Below are positions 18,788-22,648 of a stretch of DNA of 40,478 nucleotides, one piece after another. The notes under the pieces are model-generated. The model was not told the origin of the DNA, did no database searches, and was given only the letters and a program-made list of their open reading frames with translations. Numbering within the stretch: position 1 is the first letter of the stretch; each line of letters opens with the position of its first letter. Both the position numbers and the translations under genes were made by a program. Source of the stretch: Candidatus Peribacteria bacterium RIFOXYB1_FULL_54_35 (GTDB taxonomy: Bacteria > Patescibacteriota > Gracilibacteria > Peribacterales > Peribacteraceae); assembly GCA_001787755.1 (NCBI GenBank), contig MFYJ01000009.1:1-40478 (forward strand), written 5' to 3'.

Positions 18788-20461
18788 CTACACGCTAGTT
18801 GTGGCAGGTGCCGGTGAATCTTCCAGGGCTCTACGCAGGGGTTCAAGAAATCTTTCGTACTCAGCATCATCCATCTCTATGCACAGGCGGTGCAGTTTGC
18901 CGCGCACCTCCGCGACGTGCGCACGGTCAATCATGAAGGTCATCACCTGCTCGTTGAGGCCCTGCGTCATGAAGTGGATGTCCGCGCCTGCAATGTGCAT
19001 GGCCATTGTTGCCCTGGACGCAGGACCCGTCTGCCCCATGTTGTTCCCGAGGCAGAAGATGAGCGCCTGGTCCCTGAGCATTTCCAGTTTGAGTTCCTCG
19101 TCCGGTCCGAATGTATCCTGGAGGAAAGTCTCAAAGTCTCTGAGTATCTGCTCTTTGAATTTGCCGTTGTTGAACGTGAATGACGTCGTGCGTTCGCTGG
19201 TACTCACCTGATCAATGGAGATCTTTCGATCGGCGAACCACGTGGTCACTGCGCTTAAGAAACCGGGTTTCCCGAACATCTCGGTGGAGCTGACCTGAAT
19301 GGCCAGTGGCACTTTCCGGGATGCAATAATCTCGATCCCACTCGGTTGAGGTTCGTAGTGATGGATGTATGTGATACTGTCGTCCCGCTGTTCTCGCGCA
19401 GGGTTGAAGACGACAGTATCAATGTCATCCTCGGCGAGCATGTTGAGTGCGTCCGGGTGAATGGCTCCTCCGTCCGCTCCGCGCGTATTTCCGAAGAGCT
19501 CCATTGCAAGTGCAAAAGTCATCTCCCGTATGACGCGGGCACGGTCATTTTTCTTGGGATCGTCACTCATGATGGGGTACTCCTTCTCTATGAGGTACGC
19601 CACGCGCTCGCCGAGATCTTTTGCCGCCTGCGCGAGGAGCGCGCCGGTCTTGTCGCTGTACCCGCGCTGGCTCGCGATGACCGGCAGGTATCCTCCTGCA
19701 ATGAGGATGGTGTGATCTTGGAGCAGCGATTCCACTCTTGTGCGCATTTCTGACCGCAGGGAAGCGATGGCAGCAGTCGATTGTTGCTCGTTCTCCACCA
19801 CTTCCGCAGGGTGTGTTCCGTACAGATCCCCGGCCATCTCCTCTGTTCCGATTGCGCCTGTTTCCAGGTTCCGCAGGGCGGCATACTTCAGGTAAATGGC
19901 TTGTGCAAGCTGCTCGCCCACGCCGGTGACGGAGTAGTATCCATCGGCGCTCTCAAGCACCCAGTCCTTCTTCAGTTCATGGAGTGTGCTTGTATCTGCC
20001 CCGTCAATCCGTGTACCAAGCTCATCGAGTATCCCATCGATCACTGCATCGAGTGCTGCGTTTGCGGATGCAGCATCGAGCAGGGGATCAGCTTTCACTT
20101 CAGTGTGAACCACTTCTTTGAGAAATATTCGGGTACGCTCCAGCATGTCATGTGCGATGGCGGTATCACCGTTCCGCAGGCATTTTGCAATGGCAATAAG
20201 GTGCGAGGTTGTATTGAACCCTTCCTTCAGGTTGTCGTCGGAGTCCCGGTCCCGTGCGTCCTTGTGCGCCATCGCGGTGAAGCTCCTGTCTGAGCTGCGG
20301 ATGGCGGAAATTGCGAGAATCTGCTTCTTCCCGCGCGTCTGGCGGTCAAGGACGGTTGCGAAGTTCTCCCGGAGCTTCCCGGCATTGTCTCCGCCGATCT
20401 TTGTGACGTACACATCCGCTTCTTGCAGGACATCGAGGCCGGTACGTTGGGGGGATTCCAT
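18788..20461 (-). CDS. Divergent aspartate kinase with C-terminal ACT-like domains
   Basis: A 557-residue aspartokinase-type protein. The N-terminal strand VYVTKIGGDNAG (Lys21) replaces the usual KFGGTSV: the Lys and GG are kept but the Ser/Thr is not. 'TILIAGGYLPVIASQRGYSDKTGALLA' (about 252-278) corresponds to the 'GF...LGRGGSD.TA..lA' aspartate/ATP site, and 'ADGGAIHPDALNML' to the 'GA.vlHP' segment. From about residue 380 two ACT-like regulatory modules follow ('PLAIQVSSTEMFGKPGFLSAVTTWF', then 'ALIFCLGNNM'). Aspartokinase makes aspartyl phosphate, the first step to Lys, Thr and Met. The ATG at 20461 was chosen over an in-frame TTG at 20485. A Lys/Thr-rich leader ORF and terminator lie directly upstream, which supports the assignment. 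The divergent active site keeps a related amino-acid kinase possible. Confidence 0.75.
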   Translation of the reverse strand: MESPQRTGLDVLQEADVYVTKIGGDNAGKLRENFATVLDRQTRGKKQILAISAIRSSDRSFTAMAHKDARDRDSDDNLKEGFNTTSHLIAIAKCLRNGDTAIAHDMLERTRIFLKEVVHTEVKADPLLDAASANAALDAVIDGILDELGTRIDGADTSTLHELKKDWVLESADGYYSVTGVGEQLAQAIYLKYAALRNLETGAIGTEEMAGDLYGTHPAEVVENEQQSTAAIASLRSEMRTRVESLLQDHTILIAGGYLPVIASQRGYSDKTGALLAQAAKDLGERVAYLIEKEYPIMSDDPKKNDRARVIREMTFALAMELFGNTRGADGGAIHPDALNMLAEDDIDTVVFNPAREQRDDSITYIHHYEPQPSGIEIIASRKVPLAIQVSSTEMFGKPGFLSAVTTWFADRKISIDQVSTSERTTSFTFNNGKFKEQILRDFETFLQDTFGPDEELKLEMLRDQALIFCLGNNMGQTGPASRATMAMHIAGADIHFMTQGLNEQVMTFMIDRAHVAEVRGKLHRLCIEMDDAEYERFLEPLRRALEDSPAPATTSV

Positions 20462-20483: not shown

Positions 20484-20511
20484 AAAAAACCTCCTTGTGA
20501 AGGGAGGCTTT
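20484..20511 (-). terminator. Intrinsic terminator, probable attenuator of the aspartokinase gene
   Basis: On the minus strand CCTCC (20507-20503) pairs with GGAGG (20494-20490) around an 8-nt loop, extended by A-U pairs, and is followed by six T (20489-20484). It ends 22 nt before the aspartokinase ATG. It could simply end leuA transcription, but the leader ORF and competing helix (GAAGGG at 20545-20540 with CCCTTC at 20504-20499) suggest attenuation. Confidence 0.7.
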
Positions 20512-20529
20512 ATTTCATGTAGATGGAGT

Positions 20530-20601
20530 CTAGCAGTCGCCCTTCCTGTATGAGGAGGTCTTCTTGGTCTTCATGGTCTTCGTGTGACCGAGGAGCTGCA
20601 T
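20530..20601 (-). CDS. Putative Lys/Thr-rich leader peptide of aspartokinase
   Basis: A 23-codon ORF in the spacer between leuA and the aspartokinase gene. Of its residues 5 are Lys and 4 are Thr, clustered from codon 7 to codon 15 (T-K-T-M-K-T-K-K-T) and ending SSYRKGDC. Lys and Thr are end products of the aspartokinase pathway. Its ATG is 9 nt after a TATTCT -10 hexamer, so the RNA would be nearly leaderless, like many genes here. Its stop lies 18 nt before the intrinsic terminator. A ribosome paused at codons 11-15 would leave GAAGGG (20545-20540) free to pair with the terminator's 5' arm, whereas one reaching the stop would cover it. An internal ATG at 20574 gives a 14-residue version. 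The ORF is short and could be chance. Confidence 0.6.
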   Translation of the reverse strand: MQLLGHTKTMKTKKTSSYRKGDC

Positions 20602-20610
20602 AACGAGGAG

Positions 20611-20638
20611 AGAATAGAAGGCTTCGGAGGGAAGTCAA
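20611..20638 (-). promoter_or_regulatory. Promoter of the aspartokinase leader
   Basis: TTGACT (20638-20633) and TATTCT (20616-20611) are 16 nt apart on the minus strand, just downstream of the leuA stop. The predicted start, about 20604, is three bases before the leader ATG. The -10 is only a partial match. Confidence 0.5.
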
Positions 20639-20639
20639 A

Positions 20640-22415
20640 CTATTCTTCGGATGCCTCCATCATTGCTTTGTAGTCATCCATGGCTTTCATAGCATTGAAC
20701 GCTTTGATGAGGGCAGTCCGCTCCGCGACATGCGTGTCGCGATGCGTTGCACTGTGTGTCACTTCGAATCCGTTCCGGATGGTGAAGCTGGAGACGGCAG
20801 CAGTGCCGGATCCCTCTCCCACTGCGCGGGTGTGGAATCCGTCGCGGGGCATTTCAACGCCGGGAATAATCTGTTTCATACCTTGCATGATGGCGTCGAG
20901 CTCTCCTTCATCTTTTGCGGAAGCGACGCCAATGATTTGCTCACCATCTCTGGTAGTGATCCGTACGGCGAATTTTCCATCTACACGATCTATTTCCGTG
21001 ACATCTGCAATGTATGCTCCTCCTGTGATTTCTATTACAGAGGGGTAGTATGCTTCTTCCATCACCTCGCTGTCCGAAAGCCCCTTCCGTCGCTGGAGTC
21101 TGTCGGCAGTTGCGGAGACTGCGTCGGTGAACAGCTGTCTGTCTGTTTCCCGGAAAGGCAGTTTTTTCCCTTCAAGGTAATCTTTGATCCCGCCCCATCC
21201 TGAGTGCTTGCCGAGGATGAGCTTGCTCGTGGCGCCGTACCTTTCTGCCGTGAGTATCTCGTACGCTCTCCTGCCGCTGCCGCTCCGTTTGGCCTTCAGG
21301 TGGCCATCCTGGTGGATGCCCGCCTCGTGGGCGAATGCATTCTCTCCGACAATCGGATGTTCCGGGGAGATGTCTTTTCCAAGGATGGAACTTAAGAGCA
21401 GTGCGGTTTTCATCACCTGTTTCCGCACAATAGGATCAGTGATCCTTCTCCCCGTTGCTTCCTCATAGTAGTGGAGATTAGCATCCAGCCCTGCGAGGAA
21501 ACCTTCGAAGGAGAAGTTGCCTGCCCGCTCTCCAATGCCAAGAATGGTCGGTTCAAATTGCTGTGCACCCGCCTCGAGCGCTGCGTGGGCATTGGCGACT
21601 GCATTGCCTGTGTCGTTGTGGCCGTGCCAGGAAATCACCACATGCTGGAAGCCGTGTTCATCCAGAAGCTTCCGTACATGTGCGACGCGTTTCACGATCT
21701 GCATCGGGACCGCAATACCCACTGTATCCGGCAGATTGATAATGTGTGCTCCCATCTGTGCGGCGGCGAGTATCACTTCATCGGAGACGCTCTCTTCCGT
21801 GCGCGTCCAGTCTTCCGGCGAGAACTGGATGACTGCGTTCGTGTCCTGTTCGCGGATGTACGGTATCTCTGTTTCAATACCCGGTATGACCACTCTGTGG
21901 ATGAGACTGGAGAGATTCCCGGGTCTGCCACCTGCTTTTCTGATATCTCCATCAAACTTGTCTATCTGATCCTGGGAAGTGGAGACGAATGTATGCACTC
22001 CATGATGTGGTGCTCCACCTACGGCATCCAGAACACGCTGGATGTCCTTCCTCTTGAGGCGTGCAAGGCCGGAGATGCGCGGATACACAGATTCGTGCGA
22101 CGGGCGCGGGAGCTTCTGCGATCCGACTTCGTTCGCTATACGTTCCACCGCTCTGAAATCGCCCGGGCTTGCAATGGGGAATCCTGCTTCGATGCCGGGT
22201 ATGCCCATGCGGACGAGCTGTTTGGCGATCTCCAGCTTCTCTTCTTCTGACATGGTGTTCCCTGGAGCCTGTTCGCCGTCGCGCAGCGTGACGTCGTTGA
22301 TGAAGAGGCGTGTGGTTGCCCTTCGTTTACCGATTTGCACTTCGTAGGCTTCCCGCATGAGCCTGTCGGCTGCAGTCTCGGCTCCGGGGGTTCTTTCGGC
22401 GGTTCTTCTTGGCAT
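20640..22415 (-). CDS. leuA: 2-isopropylmalate synthase
   Basis: A 591-residue acyltransferase of the LeuA/HMG-lyase-like family, which condenses acetyl-CoA with 2-oxoisovalerate in the first committed step of leucine synthesis. The TIM-barrel signature DVTLRDGEQAPG (41-52) carries the metal Asp and catalytic Arg. HGHNDTGNAVANAHAALEAGA (264-284) supplies the two metal His residues, and GIGERAGN (293-300) is canonical. A linker region and a C-terminal LeuA regulatory domain (about 440-570) follow, as in leucine-inhibited enzymes. It has about 35 extra N-terminal residues. No leuB, leuC or leuD is in the window. Homocitrate and citramalate synthases are related, but the Leu-rich leader ORF directly upstream favours leucine. 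No Shine-Dalgarno precedes the ATG. Confidence 0.9.
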   Translation of the reverse strand: MPRRTAERTPGAETAADRLMREAYEVQIGKRRATTRLFINDVTLRDGEQAPGNTMSEEEKLEIAKQLVRMGIPGIEAGFPIASPGDFRAVERIANEVGSQKLPRPSHESVYPRISGLARLKRKDIQRVLDAVGGAPHHGVHTFVSTSQDQIDKFDGDIRKAGGRPGNLSSLIHRVVIPGIETEIPYIREQDTNAVIQFSPEDWTRTEESVSDEVILAAAQMGAHIINLPDTVGIAVPMQIVKRVAHVRKLLDEHGFQHVVISWHGHNDTGNAVANAHAALEAGAQQFEPTILGIGERAGNFSFEGFLAGLDANLHYYEEATGRRITDPIVRKQVMKTALLLSSILGKDISPEHPIVGENAFAHEAGIHQDGHLKAKRSGSGRRAYEILTAERYGATSKLILGKHSGWGGIKDYLEGKKLPFRETDRQLFTDAVSATADRLQRRKGLSDSEVMEEAYYPSVIEITGGAYIADVTEIDRVDGKFAVRITTRDGEQIIGVASAKDEGELDAIMQGMKQIIPGVEMPRDGFHTRAVGEGSGTAAVSSFTIRNGFEVTHSATHRDTHVAERTALIKAFNAMKAMDDYKAMMEASEE

Positions 22416-22441: not shown

Positions 22442-22473
22442 AAAAATTCTGGCTCGCAGAAAACCTGCCAGCC
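22442..22473 (-). terminator. Weak intrinsic terminator before leuA
   Basis: On the minus strand CTGGC (22471-22467) pairs with GCCAG (22453-22449), with a possible inner helix, and is followed by AATTTTTG. The stem is short and bulged, so on its own it is weak. Its position between the Leu-rich leader ORF and the leuA ATG suggests an attenuator. Confidence 0.45.
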
Positions 22474-22480
22474 TTCGCTT

Positions 22481-22534
22481 GGAAGGATGGTCCGTACGCT
22501 CAGTTCAGTTTCCTACGCACGCGGCCGTCCTTCC
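22481..22534 (-). repeat. Large hairpin overlapping the end of the leuA leader ORF
   Basis: GGAAGGACGG (22534-22525, codons 25-28 of the leader) pairs with CCATCCTTCC (22490-22481), nine of ten positions, and the helix can extend inward imperfectly. CCTTC of the 3' arm can instead pair with GAAGG (22478-22474), just before the terminator, giving alternative structures of the kind attenuators use. Confidence 0.6.
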
Positions 22535-22608
22535 GCCGTAAGGAGGAGCCCTTCGATAAGGCTCAGGGCAAGGAGGGAGAGGCCGAGACTCAGCTGTCTC
22601 TGGTGCAT
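22513..22608 (-). CDS. Putative Leu-rich leader peptide of leuA
   Basis: A 31-codon ORF whose ATG is 12 nt after the -10 of a strong promoter and whose stop is 97 nt before leuA. Ten residues are Leu (positions 6, 8, 10, 12, 13, 15, 17, 21, 22, 23), with runs such as LSLGLSLLALSL and GLLLT. This is what a classical leucine attenuator leader should look like, although E. coli leuL is not similar in sequence. Codons 14-20 overlap a palindrome of the 'GCCCTGAGC..TCGAAGGGC' type that is dispersed in this window, so a few of the leucines come from a repeat. Codons 25-28 form the 5' arm of the following hairpin. There is no Shine-Dalgarno; leaderless initiation is assumed. Confidence 0.6.
   Translation of the reverse strand: MHQRQLSLGLSLLALSLIEGLLLTAEGRPRA
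22548..22569. repeat. Palindrome of the CCCTGAGC/CGAAGGG family
   Basis: GCCCTTCGATAAGGCTCAGG followed by GC: GCCCT pairs with AGGGC around a partly complementary centre. It belongs with the elements at 22775-22815 and 32702-32739 and lies inside the leuA leader ORF. Confidence 0.55.
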
Positions 22609-22620
22609 ACTGTGAGCAGC

Positions 22621-22648
22621 ATTTTAAGAGTGTTCTGAAGGGTGTCAA
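22621..22648 (-). promoter_or_regulatory. Promoter of the leuA leader
   Basis: A consensus -35 TTGACA (22648-22643) and TAAAAT (22626-22621) with a 16-nt spacer on the minus strand. The predicted start, around 22614, gives a leader of only about six bases before the ATG at 22608. Confidence 0.7.

Follow-up and report, generated by a model that had tools for sequence, protein, structure and literature searches.

What controls the aspartokinase-like gene of this Peribacteria genome, and what is the role of the short segment that separates it from leuA? In the window (the whole stretch of 40,478 nt that was analysed), this segment holds a promoter, a small open reading frame (ORF) rich in lysine and threonine codons and an intrinsic terminator. 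Directly behind them lies the predicted controlled gene, which encodes an aspartokinase-like protein with C-terminal ACT domains (18788..20461, minus strand, as are all window features below). The original prediction read these elements as a Lys/Thr attenuator, and comparison with relatives supported this reading. Our analyses make it highly probable that the locus is a ribosome-mediated transcription attenuator sensing the charging of Lys-tRNA and Thr-tRNA.

The promoter, leader ORF, terminator and intervening distances were all found where they had originally been placed. The leader promoter is composed of a -35 box, TTGACT (20633..20638), and a -10 box, TATTCT (20611..20616), separated by 16 nt, and the ATG of the leader (20601) follows the -10 box by 9 nt, a spacing from which a near-leaderless start is predicted. 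The -35 box starts 1 nt beyond the leuA stop, which is at 20640. The leader ORF, MQLLGHTKTMKTKKTSSYRKGDC (20530..20601), has 23 codons, including five Lys and four Thr, and its putative sensor codons are TKTMKTKKT (codons 7-15; 20557..20583), in which every Lys is encoded by AAG. Overlapping the sensor codons is arm A, CCTCCT (20553..20558), which is able to pair with the 5' part of arm B to form a protector hairpin. Arm B, AGGAAGGGCGACTGC (20533..20547), occupies the end of the ORF and pairs with arm C, GCCTCCCTTC (20499..20508), to form the antiterminator; the GAAGGG of codons 19-21, to which this pairing had first been attributed, is present at 20545-20540 inside arm B. Arm C is common to the antiterminator and the terminator, whose 3' arm is arm D, AAGGAGG (20490..20496). 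The intrinsic terminator, AAAGCCTCCCTTCACAAGGAGGTTTTTT (20484..20511), consists of the hairpin AAAGCCTCCCTTCACAAGGAGG followed by T6, and 22 nt separate this T-run from the aspartokinase ATG (20461). Folded by itself, the tail formed the terminator at -11.2 kcal/mol, and in a separate comparison the tail folded better than 193 of 200 shuffles. The whole leader region folded no better than its shuffles (z -1.04), a result that can be compatible with a leader having competing helices.

Of 74 genomes of the family that were searched, 15 encode this type of aspartokinase and have upstream DNA that could be read, and a Lys/Thr-rich leader of 19-29 codons was present in all 15 (for example, MQSSQPTKMLKTKKTSLHRKGGC, MQLVSSMKKTTKTSRSGKDGC, MQHFASTKKTMKTSLIGKDSC and MIHCCYTTTKTTKTTSSGGRLSV). 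The leader promoters share a TTGAC-type box (in nearly all relatives), a spacer of 15-17 nt and a TAnnnT box located 6-11 nt 5' of the ATG, suggesting that the leader transcript begins at or just 5' of the ATG and would have no room for a ribosome-binding site. A hairpin is found 3' of the leader in all 15 genomes, with a T-run in most of them, 43-55 nt past the stop codon; in G015, G080 and G028, either the hairpin or the T-run is weak. Relatives that are 36-66% identical in protein keep the Lys/Thr codons as well as the two alternative helices, so that the comparison by which the original prediction could have been refuted favoured it (one relative has an aspartokinase that is 66% identical). 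A scan of genome contigs returned a single locus, seemingly on the contig of G001. In G015, the leader (MSLSTLLKTAKMTKLPLSRGGMAA) precedes dapA, and the aspartokinase gene (lysC) is located directly 3' of dapA, indicating that the leader follows the transcription unit.

A covariance model (R1) was mostly sequence-based, since RNAalifold gave a terminator stem of only four pairs. When used in searches, this model recovered leaders throughout the family, plus a single leader from a different family. In G049, which belongs to another family of the same class, an AK-asd-dapB-like operon (asd and dapB assigned by eye) is preceded by the leader MHVVSQIKKAKKSTS with a terminator. In addition, small uncharacterised proteins of ~100-135 aa are encoded behind Lys/Thr leaders at L073, L079, L084, L087 and L088, in several genomes that yielded no gene of this aspartokinase type. 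Lys-rich leaders at four other loci (L094, L095, L096 and L136) precede a formyltransferase-like or an uncharacterised gene (acetyltransferase-like by eye), which is followed by an M23-peptidase-type gene. An acetyltransferase-like/M23 pair also adjoins the aspartokinase gene in G013, and the four loci possibly represent a lysine-linked operon.

The original prediction proposed that covariation of the two alternative helices would be informative. As MAFFT misaligned the arms in divergent sequences and left them out of register, the column-wise analysis was dropped and an arm-swap test was used instead, which bore out covariation between arms B and C. The mean pairing energy was -20.6 kcal/mol for each genome's own B and C arms and -15.9 kcal/mol for swapped arms (15 genomes; 20,000 permutations, p=5e-5). 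In G082, G080 and G015 the arms have diverged in sequence, and B and C still match each other. In the window, the B:C helix ranks among the weakest (-10.7 when only the C arm is used). Across the set, the antiterminator (B:C) and the terminator (C:D) use the common arm C and are mutually exclusive. The last Lys/Thr codon is located 10-18 nt from arm B in 12 of the 15 genomes (median 12), and arm B ends at the leader stop codon. The footprint of a stalled ribosome would reach about as far as this distance of ~12 nt; thus, a ribosome stalled at the sensor codons would leave the antiterminator helix free. Such a predicted helix layout, together with this spacing, is the geometry of classical attenuation.

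Among the 348 residues of the 15 leaders, 60 are Lys and 53 are Thr. Lys is always encoded by AAG in these leaders; the downstream ORFs contain 130 AAG and 179 AAA codons. The probability of an all-AAG set is ~1e-22 under independence, a figure that is overstated by the relatedness of the genomes. The same preference was observed in 17 more Lys-bearing leaders at other genes (AAG in 67 of 69), which brings the leaders at all genes to 127 AAG in 129 Lys codons. Perhaps starvation affects the tRNA that reads AAG most strongly, or runs of A are avoided. For Thr, all four codons are used and the frame stays open; thus, selection there seems to act on the residue and not on the bases.

These features suggest the following course of events. 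Transcription would begin at the leader ATG or a few nucleotides 5' of it, with a ribosome trailing the RNA polymerase into the leader. When Lys- or Thr-tRNA is scarce, the ribosome would stall in codons 7-15 and cover arm A, so that arm B could pair with arm C, no terminator would form and the aspartokinase-like gene would be transcribed. When both tRNAs are ample, the ribosome would reach the stop codon and cover arm B, arm C would pair with arm D and transcription would end at the T-run. Three elements of this scheme are deduced from the DNA: where transcription starts, that the leader is translated and that Lys and Thr elicit a response.

The position of the hairpin, between leuA and the aspartokinase gene, invites another explanation, in which it only ends the leuA transcript, the ORF is accidental and the aspartokinase promoter lies further downstream; the gap between the T-run and the ATG could indeed contain another start. 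However, 14 other genomes with differing upstream neighbourhoods have this leader and hairpin before the gene, each with a promoter before the leader, and none of the other genomes examined shows the leader tied to leuA. The Lys/Thr content, the frame and the B:C covariation are all conserved, which argues against an accidental ORF, and we regard this explanation as very improbable. Somewhat less improbable, though still unlikely, is that the encoded peptide, or the terminated transcript as a small RNA, acts in trans, with the terminator being of secondary importance; both roles could also coexist. Many relatives share the GKDGC end of the peptide, and the trp leader peptide of Sinorhizobium meliloti is reported to act in trans (PMC7298713). 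However, GKDGC is encoded by arm B, the nucleotides of which are bound to match arm C, and divergent relatives lose these residues while keeping the pairing. Poor conservation of the N-terminal half of the leader peptide likewise argues against a function in trans.

Control of lysine genes by riboswitches is common in other bacteria, and control here by a metabolite-binding RNA, for instance a lysine riboswitch or a T-box, or by a switch at the level of translation could therefore be envisaged, with the ORF being incidental. Against this, an Rfam scan of the window at the gathering score returned two tRNAs only and no family at the leader, and the covariance models of the thr operon leader (RF00506), the lysine riboswitch and the T-box had no match in the window at this score. 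The leader region spans only ~120 nt and has no conserved fold beyond the competing arms, and the distance from the hairpin to the start codon, which varies from 11 to 75 nt in relatives, argues against sequestration of a ribosome site. We thus consider such a switch extremely improbable at this locus.

Attenuation of the same design was also encountered at the neighbouring gene. As anticipated, a second leader is located before leuA: a Leu-rich ORF, MHQRQLSLGLSLLALSLIEGLLLTAEGRPRA (22513..22608), with its own promoter, TTGACA-N16-TAAAAT (22621..22648), and its own terminator, GGCTGGCAG...CTGCGAGCC followed by T5 (22442..22473). The leuA-type isopropylmalate synthase gene (20640..22415) is predicted to be under the control of this sister attenuator. 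Leu-rich leaders (e.g., MHQRNLLLGLALLLLTAEGRLRA) were found before most of the leuA relatives examined, and the antiterminators of the Leu leaders gave p=5e-4 in the own-versus-swapped test (n=12). Two such leaders at adjacent genes had been argued to make chance less likely. The Lys/Thr leader is no chance arrangement, as the layout of promoter, ORF and hairpin recurs at all 15 relatives of the aspartokinase-like gene, and shuffled or reversed controls were without runs. The window Leu leader also carries an in-frame palindromic repeat of ~8 codons, CCCTGAGC...TCGAAGGG (ALSLIEG). The L038, L040 and L045 leaders contain this insert, and it is missing from those of L039, L041 and L043, suggesting that a palindromic repeat entered the attenuator ORF with the frame unbroken.

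The same layout was observed at other genes with runs of Leu, Ile, Thr, Met or Pro codons. More distant, citramalate-synthase-like homologues of leuA lie behind Ile leaders (e.g., MRLRSTIISSIIIPALGVRR), and thrS of the window genome is preceded by a Thr attenuator, MHLLRTTTTTTTTPMRRS (L098, G000:C7:177161-177271). In several relatives, thrS or a gene resembling it has a similar Thr-run leader. A pattern search of the window genome that included the promoter-ATG spacing identified 23 places, compared with four for the reversed pattern; among them were MIQLSPVPTRIPTPPQARVGVQVVS before a proB-like kinase gene and MYRSHSLTAGTCSESSRTMMMQMMMRSMRGLSAA before an uncharacterised 335-aa gene, with a Met-rich counterpart in G067. 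At L112 (G000:C7, promoter 349517-349556, minus strand), the Met-run MMMQMMMRSM and a strong terminator precede the 335-aa gene, which has no Pfam match; L042 also has a Met-run leader. Pfam scans of the uncharacterised genes behind some of the leaders mostly gave no match. The Pro and Met specificities of these leaders are probable.

A scan for a promoter, short ORF and terminator over 0.69 Mb, made up of loci picked around amino-acid genes so that its counts are neither a random-sample nor a genome-wide rate, yielded 65 leaders, 40 of which show a pronounced run of residues from a single amino-acid class. The same scan of shuffled or reversed sequence gave 2-7 leaders, none with a run. Classical amino-acid attenuation thus appears to be used on a large scale in these bacteria. 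We think it likely that, in the Peribacteria-like family, leaderless leader-peptide attenuation serves as a general control of amino-acid genes (Lys/Thr, Leu, Ile, Thr at thrS, Pro at proB, Met and possibly Ala), and that the residue run labels the function of an uncharacterised gene behind it. If so, examples would include the gene behind the Met leader and the small genes behind Lys/Thr leaders.

The metabolic setting of the aspartokinase-like gene is less straightforward. The window genome (1.56 Mb, 16 contigs) is 98% complete. The aspartokinase-like protein is divergent, with an E-value of 1.5e-12 to a solved plant aspartokinase over its second half only, and the active-site-like motifs KIGG, GxGE and RGYSDxT are largely kept among the 15 relatives. 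A structure prediction built on two sequences was of low quality (mean pLDDT 44) and was set aside. In profile searches, homoserine dehydrogenase (HDH) was found in four of the 74 genomes and the C-terminal domain of asd in ten, the window genome being in neither group; nothing above threshold was found there for the NAD domain of asd, and lysA was not found. In 14 control genomes, the asd and HDH profiles matched all 14 and lysA matched 12. A DapA-family gene is present in the window genome, which possibly has divergent or non-homologous pathway enzymes. The original prediction linked the attenuator to the end products of this pathway. The attenuator itself was supported; however, as asd, HDH and lysA were undetected in this genome, a benefit to Lys and Thr supply is unproven and, on present evidence, the aspartokinase-like product has no known taker there. 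In G013, HDH and a class-II lysS-like gene lie a few genes from lysC. This arrangement and the dapA-lysC order of G015 suggest that the link between leader and pathway is real in some members, and the leader itself suggests that the aspartokinase-like gene matters for Lys and Thr.

Thr and Ile are the amino acids sensed by the thrL leader of E. coli, which also carries a ribosome-binding site. Our locus resembles thrL (RF00506) in having a leader rich in end-product codons, competing antiterminator and terminator helices and an aspartokinase-containing target. It differs in its Lys and Thr codons, the predicted near-leaderless start, the lack of an Rfam match and the stand-alone aspartokinase-like gene. 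Leaderless amino-acid attenuators, including leuL and thrL (before thrS), are known in Streptomyces lividans (PMC8079986). These actinobacterial attenuators have a very short ORF with its ATG at the transcript start, as is predicted for the leaders described here, followed by a hairpin, and their leuA and thrS targets recur here. In contrast, none of the eight S. lividans leaders is a lysine leader (PMC8079986), and the leaders described here have a uniform design, at least six residue specificities and, in most cases, T-run terminators. In S. meliloti, the small ORF SEP5, with six Thr and three Lys codons clustered in the 5' UTR of an aspartate dehydrogenase gene, has been proposed as a leader peptide and is reported to be conserved only in Sinorhizobium (PMC10117765). 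SEP5 is likewise a small Thr/Lys-codon ORF 5' of an aspartate-pathway gene; however, its target is aspartate dehydrogenase, and the passages on SEP5 do not mention that a terminator or an antiterminator was tested for.

For a long time, descriptions of leader-peptide attenuation came chiefly from Proteobacteria and Actinobacteria, followed by Firmicutes (PMC2965389). In the open-access literature that we searched, we found neither a report of it from Patescibacteria (CPR) nor any established leader peptide that senses lysine. The mechanism is a known, classical one, and the Lys/Thr specificity before aspartokinase, the near-exclusive use of AAG and the use of a suite of such leaders in one lineage appear to be new.

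If our reading is correct, the aspartokinase-like gene would pose a testable puzzle, being under Lys/Thr control in a genome in which the rest of the canonical pathway was not found. The leader codons would offer functional clues for uncharacterised genes, and metatranscriptomes could be used to test attenuation without cultures. More broadly, these reduced and mostly uncultured bacteria would run one stereotyped cis-switch for many amino acids.
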